Shown here one piece after another: positions 45,017 to 52,389 of a stretch of 64,000 bases of DNA. A model generated the notes under the pieces. The model was not told the origin of the DNA, searched no databases, and saw nothing but the letters and a program-made list of their open reading frames with translations. The DNA lies in assembly GCF_900169175.1 (NCBI RefSeq), contig NZ_FXZM01000006.1, positions 62,001-126,000 on the forward strand, read 5' to 3'. Origin of the DNA: Brevibacterium jeotgali. GTDB lineage: Bacteria; Actinomycetota; Actinomycetes; Actinomycetales; Brevibacteriaceae. Position 1 is the first letter of the stretch. Each line of letters opens with the position of its first letter. The position numbers and the translations under genes are program-made.

Positions 45017-46171
45017 TCAGCCGCTGCTCTTGTCGTCGGCTGTGCGTGCGATCATATCGCGGAGTGCGGCAAGATCGACTGCCCCTGTCTCCGGGTCAGC
45101 CGCATCCGTGAGATAAAGACGCTGAAGAGCCACTGCGACCGATTCTGCAATCGAATCTCTGACCCGAGCAGAGTGCAGTCGTGCGCTGTCGTCGTCGTTG
45201 GTGATATAGCCGACGACGACGTGGACTGTGGGCGTCGAATACTCGTGCAGCGACTTCCACGAGCGGGCATGCGAGCCGCAGTCCAAGAAGTCGGTGCGGG
45301 ACAGGACCTCCCTCTGGATCAGTTCCGCGAGACGCTTGCCGATGGGAGAAGGCTGACCGGTCGCCGTACCGAAATAGAACGTTGCGACACCGTTCGCGCT
45401 CGGGTTGGTATGCATGTCCTGCGACACGCTGATGAGAGTGGAAGCCCGCGAATCCAAGAGATCCGATGCTGCGCGTTCGTTGGTGTCGAGAACGAAGGGC
45501 GAAGCTCCTACTGCTGCGAGCCGGCCCGAGATCCTCTGTGCGATATCCCTGGAGTAGTCGCCAGACTTCGCCGTATGCTGCGCGAGCTGTGCGTCATCTG
45601 CCATCGGGAGTGCGGGAGCGGAGTCGATGACGAATGTGCGGCCTGACAGGGACGGGCCGGACGACTGGAGGCGGGCCTTCTCCTGCAGCGCAAAGATGCT
45701 GCCGGATGCGCTTCCGCGCGACACTGCGTCAAGGCCACGGAGCGTGCGGGGGCCCGCGACCCCATCAACGGTGAGGCCGAGGTTCTTCTGCAGATCGCGG
45801 ACGGCGGCGTCAGTGGTCTCTGCGAAGTCGAAATCGATGCGTGAGGCGTACAGGCCCAGATCGGAGAGCTTGGTCTGCAGTTCCGCGACGTCGTCGCCTC
45901 GAAATGTACGCACAGGATCGAATCGGAGGATGCGGTCGCCCAGCTTGTGGCGCGCCAGCTCGATCTGCTCGAACGTCTGGGGACCGAGGATGCCGTCAGA
46001 GAACAGGCCCCTGCGCTGCTGGAAGTGCTTGATGGTCCCATCGAGGTCGCGATCGAACTCTGGGCTGTCGGCGTCTCCCACGTCGTACCCCAGGCGGGAC
46101 AGCTGTGCCTTCACGGTCAGCAGCACCGTGTCGGACGCTCCGAGCTGGAAGGTGGAGTTGTGGGGTGTCAT
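45017..46171 (-). CDS. cwlM: CwlM-like peptidoglycan amidase homologue, probably inactive
   Basis: 384 residues without a signal peptide: two peptidoglycan-binding repeats (about 15-72 and 88-150; GLFSDGILGPQTFEQ, GLTVDGVAGPRTLRGL) and an Amidase_3-like domain (about 178-370). In active Amidase_3 enzymes the zinc His residues lie in VIDPGHGG and SIHxN motifs. Here these positions read VIDSAPALP and ISVSQDMHTN, so at least the first His is lost. Mycobacterial CwlM, encoded at the same place beside trx and par genes, is a cytoplasmic kinase-regulated activator of MurA rather than an amidase. The same role is inferred here. Confidence 0.85.
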   Translation of the reverse strand: MTPHNSTFQLGASDTVLLTVKAQLSRLGYDVGDADSPEFDRDLDGTIKHFQQRRGLFSDGILGPQTFEQIELARHKLGDRILRFDPVRTFRGDDVAELQTKLSDLGLYASRIDFDFAETTDAAVRDLQKNLGLTVDGVAGPRTLRGLDAVSRGSASGSIFALQEKARLQSSGPSLSGRTFVIDSAPALPMADDAQLAQHTAKSGDYSRDIAQRISGRLAAVGASPFVLDTNERAASDLLDSRASTLISVSQDMHTNPSANGVATFYFGTATGQPSPIGKRLAELIQREVLSRTDFLDCGSHARSWKSLHEYSTPTVHVVVGYITNDDDSARLHSARVRDSIAESVAVALQRLYLTDAADPETGAVDLAALRDMIARTADDKSSG

Positions 46172-46317: not shown

Positions 46318-46638
46318 TCAGGCGAGAAGCGGCTCGATCTCTTCGAGCAGGGCCGGCTTGGGGCGTGCGCCGATGATCTGCTTGACGACCTCGCCGTTCT
46401 TGAAGAGGTAGAGCGCAGGGATCGATGTGATGCCGTACTTGCCAGCGGTCTGCATGTTGTCGTCGGTGTTGATCTTGACGACCTTCAAGCGGTCGGCGAG
46501 TTCTTCTCCCAGCTCATCGACGATGGGCGAGACCATGCGGCAGGGGCCGCACCAGGGCGCCCAGAAGTCGACGAGCACGGGCTTGTCGGCCTTCAGGACC
46601 TCGTCGGAGAAGGTTGCGTCTGTGACTTCCTGGGACAT
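46318..46638 (-). CDS. trxA: Thioredoxin
   Basis: 106 residues, full length. Active site WCGPC with Cys30 and Cys33, the buried Asp in VLVDFWAPW and cis-Pro in TSIPALYLF. It reduces protein disulfides in the cytoplasm and is recharged by TrxB, encoded 84 bp upstream. The ATG follows GAGGAGGACATC. It is transcribed with trxB from the SigR/SigH-type promoter. Confidence 0.98.
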   Translation of the reverse strand: MSQEVTDATFSDEVLKADKPVLVDFWAPWCGPCRMVSPIVDELGEELADRLKVVKINTDDNMQTAGKYGITSIPALYLFKNGEVVKQIIGARPKPALLEEIEPLLA

Positions 46639-46722: not shown

Positions 46723-47712
46723 TCAGGCGCCTGCGACGGCGACCGAGGGGGTCTTCGAAGCGTCCACTGCTGCAGGCGCCTGAGCACGGGAGGCCAAGTA
46801 GTGCTCCGCATCCAGCGCTGCGGAGCAGCCCGTACCGGCGGAGGTGATCGCCTGTCGGTACACGGGGTCGATCACGTCTCCGGCGGCGAAGACGCCCTCC
46901 ATGCTGGTGCGGGAGCTGCGACCCTCGACCTGGAGGTAGCCGTCCTCGCGGAGCGACAGCCGGTCCGCGAAGAGCGAGGTGCGCGGGTCGGAACCGATCG
47001 CTACGAACATTCCCGTGACGGGCAGATCGGACGTCGCCCCTGAGATCACGTTGCGAATCGTGAGTCCGGTGAGTGCCTCTTCGCCGTGGACTTCGGCGAC
47101 TTCCGAATCGAAGACGAACTCGATCTTCGGATCGGCCTTCGCACGGTCGTGCATGGTCTGTGAGGCGCGCAGCTCCTGGCGGCGATGCACGACGGTGACC
47201 TTCGAGGCGAACCGGCTGAGGAAGGTTGCCTCCTCCATCGCGGAGTCCCCACCGCCGATGACTGCGATGTGGTGATCGCGGAAGAAGAAGCCGTCGCAGG
47301 TCGCGCACCAGCTCACGCCGTGCCCGGACAGCTTCTTCTCGTTGGGGAGCCCCAGTTCGCGGTAGGCGGAGCCCGTTGCGAGGATCACGGATTCTGCGGT
47401 GTAGCGGGTTCCGAGGCCGGTCACGATCGCATGGGCGCCCGGCTCCAGCGTCAGCTCCGTGACGTCGTCATAGACGACGGTGGCACCGAAGCGCTCAGCC
47501 TGCTGTCGCATGTTCTCCATGAGATCGGGACCCTGGACTCCTTCCGGGAAGCCCGGGAAGTTCTCCACATCCGTGGTGTTCATGAGCTCTCCGCCTGCGG
47601 TGACGGACCCGGCGATGACGACGGGCTCCAGATTCGCACGGGCGGCATAGATCGCGGCGGTGTATCCGGCTGGTCCGGAGCCCACGATCACTAGACGATG
47701 ATGGGTTGTCAT
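46723..47712 (-). CDS. trxB: Thioredoxin reductase
   Basis: 329 residues, low-molecular-weight type. FAD site VIVGSGPAGYTAAIYAARA, redox-active CATC (Cys136, Cys139), NADPH site VIGGGDSAMEEATFLSRFA and C-terminal VFAAGDVID. It passes electrons from NADPH to thioredoxin. The ATG follows AGGAGGGAC. An excellent stress promoter lies about 30 bases upstream, which implies induction by thiol oxidation. Confidence 0.98.
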   Translation of the reverse strand: MTTHHRLVIVGSGPAGYTAAIYAARANLEPVVIAGSVTAGGELMNTTDVENFPGFPEGVQGPDLMENMRQQAERFGATVVYDDVTELTLEPGAHAIVTGLGTRYTAESVILATGSAYRELGLPNEKKLSGHGVSWCATCDGFFFRDHHIAVIGGGDSAMEEATFLSRFASKVTVVHRRQELRASQTMHDRAKADPKIEFVFDSEVAEVHGEEALTGLTIRNVISGATSDLPVTGMFVAIGSDPRTSLFADRLSLREDGYLQVEGRSSRTSMEGVFAAGDVIDPVYRQAITSAGTGCSAALDAEHYLASRAQAPAAVDASKTPSVAVAGA

Positions 47713-47812: not shown

Positions 47813-50560
47813 TCAGCTGATGTCGACTTCGTCGATCATCGCACGGTAGCCGCCGCCCTCAGCTGTGGCCTCTGTGAACCACAGGAAGACGTACTGTCCG
47901 ATCGCCGGCTCGTCCAGTTCGACGGTGACGTCCCCGTCGAGCTCGACCTCTTCGACGGTCTCTGCCTCCTCGACGTCGTCGGAGTCGCCGACCCGTACCT
48001 CCAGCAGCGACGTCCCGGTGGGAGCGAGGAAGTCCAGCTGGGTGATCTCCGATTCCTCTTCGAGCTCGACCATCAGGCCCACTCCCGATTTCAAGCCGCC
48101 CCAGTCAGGTGTGTTGTAGCGCTCGCTGCGCCATCCGCCGGACTCGCCGGGCATGACGAGCTCTGCCTCATCGGAGTTCTCCTCGTCGTCGCCCTCGGGG
48201 TCGATCGCGGTGATCTCGTCGATGACCGGTGCCGCCGCCTGTGGTTCGGGCTCCTCGGTCTCCTCGTCGGCAGGCGTCGATTGCTGCGTGGGTTCGGGCG
48301 CGGGAGCCGCCGTCTCGTTCGACGACCCGCCGAGCGTGATGATGCCGATGACGATCGCTGTGACGACGAGGAGCGCGAGCACGAGGAGTGTGACCGTCCG
48401 TCGTCTGCGGGCGCCTGCCGAACCGGACGCCGTCTGCGCGGGCCCGTCGCTGCCGGCCCCGCTACCGGCCCCGCTGCCGGCCGGACCTCCGGAGGACGAC
48501 GGGCTCGCCGCCGCCGAGGTGCCCTTCACCGCGGCGCCCTTCGCACCGGCAGTCTGCGGACCAGCAGTCCGCGCACCGGCAGTCTGCCCACCGGGTGCCT
48601 GCCCGCCGGTCGTCGGCTCTGCGGTCTCAGCCGCACCGCCCGCCTCTGACGACGTGCTCGTGGATGCCGCCGCGGTGGACGTCTGCGCTGTGCCGCTGCG
48701 ATCGGACTCCCTCTGCGATGACTCGCGCTGTCGTGTGCTCCGCGCTTCGGCGGCGATCACACGCTGCTGCGCGGCTTCCGCACGTCGGCGTTCGAGCGCA
48801 CGTTCGCGCTCGAACGCGATCCGCTGCTGCTCGATCTCCTCTTCGCGCGTCGTGAAGACACCGCCGAGGAACCACGAGCCGTCGTCCTCCGTCGATGCCT
48901 CTGACTCCGACGAACCGATCGGGTCTGCGTCATCAGCGGATGGGACCTCGGATGTGTCCGCGTCATCGTCGGCACCGGTCGCCACCGAATCCGGCGGCTC
49001 GTCGTCGGCGGCATCGTCCTCGGACAGGTCCGGGACGATCGGCAGCGACTGCGTCGAGACGTCTTCGGGCGGATCCCACAGCGCATCGCGATCGAGGATG
49101 GGCGCAGTGACGTCTCTGTCGTACTCGGTGGCGGAGAGGTCTTCGTAGGCGGTGTACGTCTGCTCCGGCGTCCACTCCTCGGTGTCGACGTCGGACAGAT
49201 CTTCGGCGCTGAGCGGGAACACGCTCGCCTCTCGCATCTGCATCCGCTCGTCGAGCTTCGTGACGACGCCGTCCGATCGTCCTGCGGAGTAGCCGGATGT
49301 GCCCGGCCGGCTCATGCCGATCCGCGCGAGTGCAGCCTGGATCTGGTCGGGGGTGGCCTGTCGCTGCAGCGGCGCGATGGGCGCAGTGGGGCGAGGCGGT
49401 GGTGTGGTCGTGGGCCGCGAACCCGTGCTGCCCATCCCGACGGTCGAGCCGGTCGCCTTCTTGCGTGCGACCGGTGCATCGGTGGAGAGGTTCACGGTCG
49501 GCTTCGCGCCGACCGTCCCGGCTCCGGTCGAGGTGCTGGCCGCCGCCGTCGCGTCAGTCTCCGGGGCTTCCGCGTCCGAGGTCCCGGTCGCCGCGTCCGC
49601 GGTCCCCGCCCCCGCGGCAGCGGACTGCGGGTCGGTCGCTGGAGCGGAGTCCGCAGTCTCTGCGACTGTCTCTGCGACGCGGCCGTCGGACGACGTGTGA
49701 CCCGGGACGGCGATGTCGTCGGCGAAGAGCTCTTCGTCGGGCAGCGGCGAGCCTTCGAGGTTCGCCAGGCTGTCGCGATTCCATTCGCGCAGGTACCGGA
49801 CGATCTCGCCCGGAGAGCGCGGCCCCGGATCGCTGAAGGAGGTGACTCCGGTGAGGAAGGCCGTGAGGTCTTCCGGGACGTCGGACCGCAGGGTCTCGAT
49901 CTCCACGACGCGCTGGTTCTTCCGCGGCGCGGCGGGCAGACCGGCGCGCGATTCGGGCTTCGGCCACTGACCGGACAGGCATGCGTACAGGATGTCGACG
50001 ATCGCGAGGGCATCCTCCCTCAGCGCAGTCGTATCGGTCTGCACCTCCAGCCCGAGCGCAGCCTCGGACAGCGCCGCGTCGATGGCGATCCCGTGGACCA
50101 CCACGTCGCCGTTCGTCATGATGCCGATCGACTCCGGTCCCAGGCACCGGTGGTGGAGTCCGCGGCGACCCGCGTGGACCAGCACTTCGGAGACCTCGCC
50201 GGTGACGGCACGGGCCTCCTCCGGGCCGATCGGTCCTGCTGAGAGCACCTCTGCCAGCGATGTCGCGGCAGTGCGCTCGCAGACGACATAGTCGACCGGA
50301 CGGCCGTCCTCGAGGTCCGCGGATCCGACGTCGAGCACGGAGGGGACGCGCGGATCGTTGACGAGGGCCAGGCGCCGACCGGAGTCCAGCAGACCGCCGG
50401 ACAGCTCTGCGTCAGCCGCGTAGAGGATGACGGGATCGTCGAGGATGGCGTCGAGAGCCAGGCAGACGACGCCCGATTCCGGGGTGTCGGCGAGCCAGGG
50501 CCTTTCGATTGCGGAGACGACGTATCTGTCTGCGATGACAGTACCGCGCTCGATCCGCAC
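47813..50560 (-). CDS. Membrane pseudokinase with discoidin-like ectodomain, separated from murJ
   Basis: 915 residues. The N-terminal kinase-like domain (about 1-255) lacks the catalytic set: VILYAADAEL at the VAIK position, HRCLGPESI at HRD and no DFG. A long low-complexity linker with an Arg/Glu coiled-coil stretch follows, then one membrane helix (TVTLLVLALLVVTAIVIGII). The acidic ectodomain ends GGGYRAMIDEVDIS and has a beta-rich discoidin-like pattern. In mycobacteria the same modules are fused to the MurJ/MviN flippase and bind FhaA. Here they form a separate gene 173 bp after murJ. The GTG at 50560 follows GGGAGGG; an ATG at 50605 is the alternative. Confidence 0.82.
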   Translation of the reverse strand: MRIERGTVIADRYVVSAIERPWLADTPESGVVCLALDAILDDPVILYAADAELSGGLLDSGRRLALVNDPRVPSVLDVGSADLEDGRPVDYVVCERTAATSLAEVLSAGPIGPEEARAVTGEVSEVLVHAGRRGLHHRCLGPESIGIMTNGDVVVHGIAIDAALSEAALGLEVQTDTTALREDALAIVDILYACLSGQWPKPESRAGLPAAPRKNQRVVEIETLRSDVPEDLTAFLTGVTSFSDPGPRSPGEIVRYLREWNRDSLANLEGSPLPDEELFADDIAVPGHTSSDGRVAETVAETADSAPATDPQSAAAGAGTADAATGTSDAEAPETDATAAASTSTGAGTVGAKPTVNLSTDAPVARKKATGSTVGMGSTGSRPTTTPPPRPTAPIAPLQRQATPDQIQAALARIGMSRPGTSGYSAGRSDGVVTKLDERMQMREASVFPLSAEDLSDVDTEEWTPEQTYTAYEDLSATEYDRDVTAPILDRDALWDPPEDVSTQSLPIVPDLSEDDAADDEPPDSVATGADDDADTSEVPSADDADPIGSSESEASTEDDGSWFLGGVFTTREEEIEQQRIAFERERALERRRAEAAQQRVIAAEARSTRQRESSQRESDRSGTAQTSTAAASTSTSSEAGGAAETAEPTTGGQAPGGQTAGARTAGPQTAGAKGAAVKGTSAAASPSSSGGPAGSGAGSGAGSDGPAQTASGSAGARRRRTVTLLVLALLVVTAIVIGIITLGGSSNETAAPAPEPTQQSTPADEETEEPEPQAAAPVIDEITAIDPEGDDEENSDEAELVMPGESGGWRSERYNTPDWGGLKSGVGLMVELEEESEITQLDFLAPTGTSLLEVRVGDSDDVEEAETVEEVELDGDVTVELDEPAIGQYVFLWFTEATAEGGGYRAMIDEVDIS

Positions 50561-50733
50561 CTGGTGCCCTCCCGATGAATAGCTCACGCCGCGATGGACC
50601 TTCATCGCAGGCGTCCTTCAGTTTATCCCGATGGATGTGCGTGGACTGGGAACCTCATGTCACGAAACCAGCACATGTACATCTCAGTAGCGAAACAGTG
50701 GCCGCCGTCGACGGTGCGGGTGTGTCCGGCTCC

Positions 50734-52389
50734 CTACGTGGCGAGCTTCGTCCGCACCGTCTGGATCGTCTGATGCAGCTCCCGCACGCGCAGCAGATAG
50801 CAGACGCCCAGATACACGGCGAGCATGACAGACGCACCCACCGCGCAGACGAGGAACGAGCCGGTCCAGCTGGAGTAGAGGTCTTCGTCGAGGTACCGCA
50901 TCCCCGCCGCGCCGACTGCGGAGGCGATGAGTGCCGCGATACCGAACTTCAGATGCGAGACGATGAGGTCCTTCGCTCCCAGGCGCTTCAGCTTGCGGCG
51001 CAGCAGTGTGGCGGAGACCAGTGCCGCGAAGACGTAGCCGATGCTCATCGACACGCCGATGCCCGCGAGGATCCACTGCCCCGGGAGCAGCAGACCGGAG
51101 GCGACCACGCCGATCGCCGTGAGAACGATCTGAGGCACCTGCACCCAGAAGGGAGTCTTCGCGTCCTCGTATGCGTAGTAGACGCGCTGGAGCAGGTAGT
51201 TCGCGCTGAACGGGATCAGACCGGCGACCATCGTCGCGATGACGGGGCCGATGGCGCGTGCCTGATCGAGCGCCCCGATCCCGCTCCCCTCGGCGACCGA
51301 CCCACCGCTGATCACCATCGCCGCGGGCGTCGACAGCGTGATGAGCGTGGCCGTTGCGAAGACGTTGACGAGGCCGACGAGCCTCAGCCCCAGACCCAGT
51401 GCGGCCCGCACCGAGGCCGTGTCCTTCTCCGCCGCATAGGTGCTGAGCGATGTGAAGAGAGCGGTGGCGAGCGACACCGCGACGAGTGAGTGCGGAAGCA
51501 TGAAGACGAGGTAGGACAGCGTGTACGCCGCGAGTGAGGCGCTCACCTCCCCGCTCGAGGACGAGGCGGAGGCCGCGACGCGGGACGTGACGATGAAGCC
51601 CAGCTGGCCGACGAGGACCGCGCCGAACGTCCAGGTCGCGATGTTCCCTGCGGTCCCCAGTCCCACACCCCGGAACCCGAACGTGGGCCGGAAGCTGAAA
51701 CCGATCCTCTTGAGCGGCCAGAGGAGGATGAAGGCCTGGCACACGACCCCGAGAGTCGCGGAGCCGGCGAGCACTGTGATCTTCGTGGCGTCCCACGTGC
51801 CGACCGCGTGCTCGCCTGCCCGACCCGTGCCGAAGAGGAAGATGAAGACTCCCAGTCCGGCGATCGCGATGACGTTGTTGAGCACCGGCGCCCACATGTA
51901 CGGGCCGAAGTTCGAATGCGCATTGAGCACCTGGCCGAGCATCGTGTAGAGCCCGTAGAAGAAGACCTGCGGCAGGCACCAGTAGGCGAAGGCGATCGCG
52001 AGCGCCTGCTTGTCGTCGCTCCACTCGGTCGACGAGTACAGACGGACCAGCAGCGGAGCCGCGAGCGTCGCGAGCACGGAGACTCCCGCGAGCACCATGA
52101 TCGCCAGGGTGAGGAGGCGGTTGACGAAGTCCTGCCCCCCGTCCGGGCGCTTCGCCGCCCGGATGATCTGCGGGACGAGCACCGCGTTGAGGATGCCGCC
52201 GGCCAGCAGCATGTAGAGGTTGTTGGGGACCTTGTTGGCCACGTCGAACGCGTCCGCGGTGCCGCCCACCGTCACACCGATCGCCGTGGCGAGCAGGATC
52301 GCCTTGGCGAAGCCCAGCAGGCGCGAGGTGAGTGTGCCCGCGGTCATGACTGCGGAGGATCTGGCGAGGGATGAGAGCCGTGCGGCCAC
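50734..52389 (-). CDS. murJ: Lipid II flippase MurJ (MviN family)
   Basis: 551 residues, about 14 membrane helices. Family sequences are ARSSAVMTAGTLTSRLLGFA, ADAFDVANKVPNNLYMLLAG and LVPQIIR near the N-terminus, and LQRVYYAYEDAKTPFWVQV in the second half. MurJ moves lipid II across the membrane for peptidoglycan synthesis. The protein ends after helix 14 and lacks the C-terminal pseudokinase found in mycobacterial MviN. The GTG at 52389 is preceded by GGAAGGACGTCA. It lies between the DUF6049 gene and the separate pseudokinase gene. Confidence 0.95.
   Translation of the reverse strand: MAARLSSLARSSAVMTAGTLTSRLLGFAKAILLATAIGVTVGGTADAFDVANKVPNNLYMLLAGGILNAVLVPQIIRAAKRPDGGQDFVNRLLTLAIMVLAGVSVLATLAAPLLVRLYSSTEWSDDKQALAIAFAYWCLPQVFFYGLYTMLGQVLNAHSNFGPYMWAPVLNNVIAIAGLGVFIFLFGTGRAGEHAVGTWDATKITVLAGSATLGVVCQAFILLWPLKRIGFSFRPTFGFRGVGLGTAGNIATWTFGAVLVGQLGFIVTSRVAASASSSSGEVSASLAAYTLSYLVFMLPHSLVAVSLATALFTSLSTYAAEKDTASVRAALGLGLRLVGLVNVFATATLITLSTPAAMVISGGSVAEGSGIGALDQARAIGPVIATMVAGLIPFSANYLLQRVYYAYEDAKTPFWVQVPQIVLTAIGVVASGLLLPGQWILAGIGVSMSIGYVFAALVSATLLRRKLKRLGAKDLIVSHLKFGIAALIASAVGAAGMRYLDEDLYSSWTGSFLVCAVGASVMLAVYLGVCYLLRVRELHQTIQTVRTKLAT

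Follow-up and report, generated by a model that had tools for sequence, protein, structure and literature searches.

The gene at 45017–46171 of the window, which is the whole 64,000-nucleotide stretch of the Brevibacterium jeotgali genome analyzed here, raises the question of what a protein with the fold of a peptidoglycan amidase does once its active site has eroded. The gene lies on the minus strand, starts with ATG, encodes 384 amino acids, and was identified as a cwlM orthologue from its open reading frame, domains, and orthologues. A cwlM orthologue was found in all 57 Brevibacterium genomes, and the best named match is that of Brevibacterium yomogidense (88% identity). Pfam searches placed two PG_binding_1 stretches and an Amidase_3 domain in one protein. 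The first repeat spans approximately residues 17–73 (45953–46123, minus strand; an approximate range from the structure model), the second covers residues 91–145 (45737–45901, minus strand), and the Amidase_3-fold domain extends over about residues 175–356 (45104–45649, minus strand; Pfam and structure model). The Amidase_3 match scores 61 bits (cut-off 27) and covers profile positions 64–173 of 174, the part of the profile around the first zinc histidine being absent from the match because that part of the protein is eroded.

An AlphaFold2 model (mean pLDDT 80, pTM 0.54, 50 sequences) consists of helical repeats and an amidase domain. The preliminary description had proposed a structural comparison with an active Amidase_3 protein, and the model superposes on solved amidases with VIA Z scores of approximately 16–22, including Rv3717 (Z 18.7–20.5, rmsd 2.5–2.9 over 168–173 residues); the Amidase_3 fold is kept. 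Taken together with CwlV and AmiC, Rv3717/Ami1 resembles CwlM in fold (Z 18.7–20.5, rmsd 2.4–3.0, 164–177 residues), but CwlM has its amidase domain fused to two PG_binding_1 repeats and lacks the zinc histidines, the catalytic glutamate, and the export signal of these enzymes. The absence of a signal peptide, already claimed in the preliminary description, agrees with inspection of the N-terminus (MTPHNSTFQLGASDTVLL), which has no hydrophobic core, and CwlM is presumably cytoplasmic.

The gene closes a same-strand run (all minus strand) consisting of murJ (50734–52389, 551 aa), a gene for a pseudokinase-like protein separate from MurJ (47813–50605, 930 aa), trxB (46723–47712, pyridine nucleotide-disulphide oxidoreductase), trxA (46318–46638, thioredoxin), and cwlM, whereas parA and parB are encoded downstream on the opposite strand. 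The pseudokinase-like protein was named from a PknB-type match over residues 79–183 that is weak, at 32 bits where the cut-off is 450. The neighborhood corresponds to the order murJ ... trxB trxA cwlM parB parA of Mycobacterium tuberculosis. The cwlM gene adjoins the replication origin. Eleven parS-like sites were counted between 40253 and 44909, beginning slightly upstream of parA, reaching a little past the 3′ end of cwlM, and lying mostly within or after parB, where 0.05 would be expected by chance at three or fewer mismatches to the parS consensus.

The likeness to mycobacterial CwlM (Rv3915 / MSMEG_6935) extends from domain order, gene order, the missing signal peptide, and the loss of both zinc histidines to a Thr-Gly pair near the C-terminus. 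A search for a threonine in this region had been suggested in the preliminary description, and T362-G363 (45083–45088, minus strand) aligns with the PknB phosphosite, given as T382 in M. tuberculosis and T374 in M. smegmatis by Boutte et al. (2016; PMC4946905) and Turapov et al. (2018; PMC6180346). The pair is aligned in all 57 Brevibacterium members. Outside the genus, among relatives in the order and class, it is aligned in 25 of 25 proteins without either zinc histidine, 32 of 50 with both, and 4 of 6 with one; with the genus included, all 82 sequences lacking both histidines carry it, a count uncorrected for relatedness. The tail in the window reads ETGA and contains neither a PTG nor a TGT string, one of which occurs in the tail of 50/57 Brevibacterium members; in Boutte et al. 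(2016), this string is a mapped variable trait and not a definition of CwlM. T362 is probably phosphorylated.

Candidate partners for such a switch are encoded in the genome. A single cluster, located on the same contig as the window, encodes FhaA (FhaA_N and FHA domains), a second FHA protein, RodA/FtsW-type and PbpA-type proteins, and two kinases, one with three PASTA stretches and one with a weak PASTA match. The gene names used for this cluster follow the M. tuberculosis cluster.

The enzyme that phosphorylated CwlM would activate is MurA, of which the genome encodes two: a type-1 enzyme (L093, 494 bits to TIGR01072) and a type-2 enzyme (L094, 417 bits). Against a MurA of family f22, a family that resembles named mycobacterial loci and was taken as Mycobacteriaceae, type-1 enzymes score at least 457 bits and other MurA at most 217.5; the MurA of the class fall into clearly distinct kinds. 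The type-2 gene is located just upstream of acyltransferase and glycerol-3-phosphate dehydrogenase genes (L347; contig C19, 2654–5822). With this second enzyme available, the type-1 MurA is not necessarily essential.

The distribution of CwlM follows that of type-1 MurA closely. Of the 149 genomes sampled from the order, 32 have both, 116 have neither, and one has CwlM only (concordance 148/149), and the class sample of 296 genomes, which shares genomes with the order sample, contains 188 with both, 101 with neither, three with CwlM only, and four with the MurA only (concordance 289/296). Type-1 MurA was called at E < 1e-150 with an alignment (A2) built solely from CwlM-bearing genomes; in the order, the called enzymes have best E values of 2.4e-174 or lower and the next MurA stands at 6e-104. 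CwlM was called at E < 1e-50 in the order (one protein as query) and at E < 1e-40 in the class (an alignment as query), and its absence was taken from the tallies of genomes. Five families (f6, f7, f15, f17, and f24) each include some genomes with both proteins and others with neither. The joint state switches nine times on an rpoB tree whose 30 genomes were all picked from the concordant ones; the tree was made by a quick method with SH-aLRT support only, the long branches of G002 and G003 meet in it, and the switches carry no direction of change. The eight discordant genomes are G016 from the order, which has CwlM only and is fragmented into 450 contigs, and G546, G548, G603, G583, G600, G651, and G658 from the class. 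Six of the eight are at most 92% complete, and G548 and G600 reach 100% and 98%, respectively. Family f105 (e.g., G547) has a MurA of intermediate score (approximately 1e-110 to 1e-115) and no CwlM, and this MurA may represent a third kind or else a type-1 enzyme that has become independent of CwlM.

CwlM-bearing genomes nearly always have a type-1 MurA whether the amidase site is intact or lost, and because type-1 murA and cwlM are located on different contigs in this genome, joint deletion or linkage does not explain the co-inheritance. The most economical interpretation is mutual dependence, in which type-1 MurA and CwlM require each other regardless of whether the amidase site is intact. 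No title or abstract opening in the open-licence literature was found to address this co-inheritance, which is new with respect to the literature found and is the part most worth pursuing.

The co-inheritance could nonetheless be indirect if the main client of CwlM were another partner, either FhaA or lipid II export via MurJ or the pseudokinase. In M. tuberculosis, according to Turapov et al. (2018; PMC6180346), CwlM binds the MurJ linker when it is not phosphorylated and FhaA when it is; FhaA, MurJ, and a pseudokinase-like gene are all present in the B. jeotgali genome, and cwlM ends the murJ strand run. However, the MurJ model match ends at residue 540 of 551, which leaves no room for the long M. 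tuberculosis linker (E541–F680), and what is one protein in M. tuberculosis, according to the same paper, is split here into two adjacent genes (47813–52389, minus strand). With no linker on MurJ and the pseudokinase-like part in a separate gene, the MurJ arm is probably either missing here or of another form. The location of type-1 murA on another contig also counts against an indirect association through linkage, and we regard another main client as unlikely.

Activation of MurA by CwlM remains the preferred reading, although the contact between the two proteins would have to differ from the mycobacterial one. Hunt-Serracin et al. (2025; PMC12723410) predict contacts in M. tuberculosis from CwlM E178 and E179 to MurA R346 and R355 and report that charged residues of the CwlM helix are required for MurA activation in vitro; they also report that mycobacteria with either of two conservative interface mutations grew normally and that the purified proteins showed no measurable binding. 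The counterpart of the R-E-E-E stretch of this predicted docking helix (M. tuberculosis residues 176–179) is Q-E-K-A at residues 163–166 (45674–45685, minus strand), so that the two glutamates read K165 and A166. Numbering transfers well between the proteins, as E209 and D331 of M. smegmatis land on the expected letters when counted back from the phosphosite.

Charges at the two faces of this interface covary among 66 pairs for which both sequences were fetched, a set that is not a random draw. Arginine or lysine occurs at MurA 346 in 39/41 pairs with an acid at CwlM 178/179 and in 13/25 without, and at MurA 355 in 38/41 and 10/25 pairs, respectively; the group without acids or basic residues includes G079, which has no MurA sequence, and without it the latter figures of each comparison become 13/24 and 10/24. 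In Brevibacterium, all ten pairs differ from the mycobacterial proteins in having no acid at CwlM 178/179 and no arginine or lysine at MurA 355, and R346 is kept in three and replaced in seven. Several families keep both arginines in MurA without the CwlM acids, and the covariation is carried by about two independent co-losses, in Brevibacterium and in family f113. At the docking place, 7 of 8 aligned non-type-1 MurA have a loop approximately 16 residues longer. Since the CwlM of the window is without the two glutamates and its MurA without the two arginines, the mycobacterial salt bridges cannot form in this pair, and the docking surface in Brevibacterium seems to have been rewired, as suggested by the loss of charges on both partners.

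The amidase site itself is extensively altered, and none of the four residues of an active enzyme (zinc His, Glu, and His, and the catalytic Glu) aligns in the CwlM of the window. By alignment with intact-site relatives, DPGH has become D183-S-A-P186, with P186 at the first zinc histidine position (45614–45616), and SLH has become S248-V-S250, with S250 at the second (45422–45424), as the preliminary description had stated. The observation was understated, since both acidic residues of the site are also gone: VELGY reads V-V319-V-G-Y, with V319 at the position of the catalytic glutamate (45215–45217), and READ reads K-S203-G, with S203 at that of the zinc glutamate (45563–45565; all minus strand), where the alignment is less sure because the stretch is rich in gaps. 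Both histidines and the catalytic acid are missing in 57/57 Brevibacterium genomes, whereas the zinc-glutamate column holds a glutamate in most members, albeit in the same unsure stretch. Family f22 also lacks both histidines, yet in 14/14 rows its two remaining active-site positions are still acidic. The amidase site of Brevibacterium CwlM probably holds no metal.

Whether CwlM might bind metal or cut peptidoglycan through an alternative site was considered, as amidase activity of M. tuberculosis CwlM has been reported (Deng, 2005, as cited in PMC4946905). H254 lies near the second histidine position, and 52/57 genus members retain H317, which precedes the catalytic position by two residues. 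However, H254 occurs in only 9/57 members, and among the His, Cys, Asp, and Glu residues from position 170 onward that are at least 90% conserved, H317 is the sole one new with respect to intact-site relatives, D359 in the tail being merely more conserved than in those relatives. CwlM also has no signal sequence, and the genome encodes a separate protein that carries the motifs DPGH, SLHAN, and VEAG and has a lipobox-like N-terminus. An alternative metal site was rejected on sequence conservation only, in which H317 is the one novelty, and such activity seems very improbable.

The separate protein with these motifs (L001; contig C4, 108841–109452) is a second Amidase_3 protein (102 bits) and is likely to be the true amidase of this kind in the genome.

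Despite the eroded site, cwlM is under purifying selection: comparison of the amidase domain with four Brevibacterium relatives gave dN/dS of 0.06/0.84, 0.14/1.39, 0.22/1.42, and 0.27/1.45, or ratios of approximately 0.07–0.19, the larger dS values being near saturation. The erosion of the site could suggest a decaying relic without function, but with dS well above dN and both the gene and its Thr-Gly tail in 57/57 genus members, this was rejected as hardly credible.

Loss of the site extends well beyond Brevibacterium and is by no means universal. Both histidines are present in 50 of 81 CwlM from elsewhere in the order and class, both are absent in 25, and only one remains in 6; in other classes of the phylum 36/44 keep both. 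On a CwlM tree the both-histidine state changes seven times within the class, at least five of these changes being forced by starred branches; the count covers 87 class rows only, with 14 of the 57 genus rows and 6 of the 14 f22 rows and with the 44 other-class rows outside it, and the tree is a quick one without a mixture model in which the ligand columns were kept. This distribution fits the study of Boutte et al. (2016; PMC4946905), in which intact and degenerate sites were mapped across actinobacterial families, a signalling role was proposed in most of them, and an E209A D331A mutant of CwlM still complemented growth. No paper on CwlM in Brevibacterium was found, two papers that contain both words having titles on other subjects, nor were biochemical data found for any Brevibacterium.

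The preliminary description had taken the degenerate site as support for a regulatory role outside mycobacteria. The role itself is well supported by the co-inheritance of CwlM and MurA, the Thr-Gly tail, the interface covariation, and a genome that encodes FhaA and a PASTA kinase. The argument from lost ligands is weak when taken alone: as 50 of 81 CwlM outside the genus keep both histidines, ligand loss is not diagnostic of regulation, and the degenerate site was rejected as proof of it. The case resembles that of EnvC, an inactive hydrolase homologue that functions as an enzyme activator (PMC4946905), although the targets of EnvC are periplasmic amidases and that of CwlM would be a cytoplasmic enzyme of biosynthesis.

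The protein is thus a CwlM orthologue, most probably a catalytically dead pseudo-amidase that activates type-1 MurA in response to a kinase and docks on it through a rewired surface. Its amidase site would no longer bind zinc or cut peptidoglycan; a PknB-type PASTA kinase would phosphorylate T362 in the C-terminal tail; and phosphorylated CwlM would activate type-1 MurA, which catalyzes the first committed step of peptidoglycan synthesis. The MurJ arm described for M. tuberculosis is probably missing from Brevibacterium. We lean, with somewhat less assurance, toward a broader view in which the amidase site is irrelevant to the CwlM–MurA pairing and has been lost several times, while CwlM is throughout Actinomycetes a near-obligate, dedicated activator of type-1 MurA. 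Lineages would keep both or lose both and rely on other kinds of MurA, type 2 having the extra loop at the docking place, and in Brevibacterium the site has been erased and the docking charges exchanged on both partners. If this is true, the PknB–CwlM–MurA switch would become a class-wide rule instead of a mycobacterial finding, accessible to study in harmless bacteria, and sequence alone would predict which MurA enzymes need an activator. The Brevibacterium pair would then represent a natural experiment, a CwlM and MurA lacking the salt bridges that activation of the M. tuberculosis enzyme requires in vitro.
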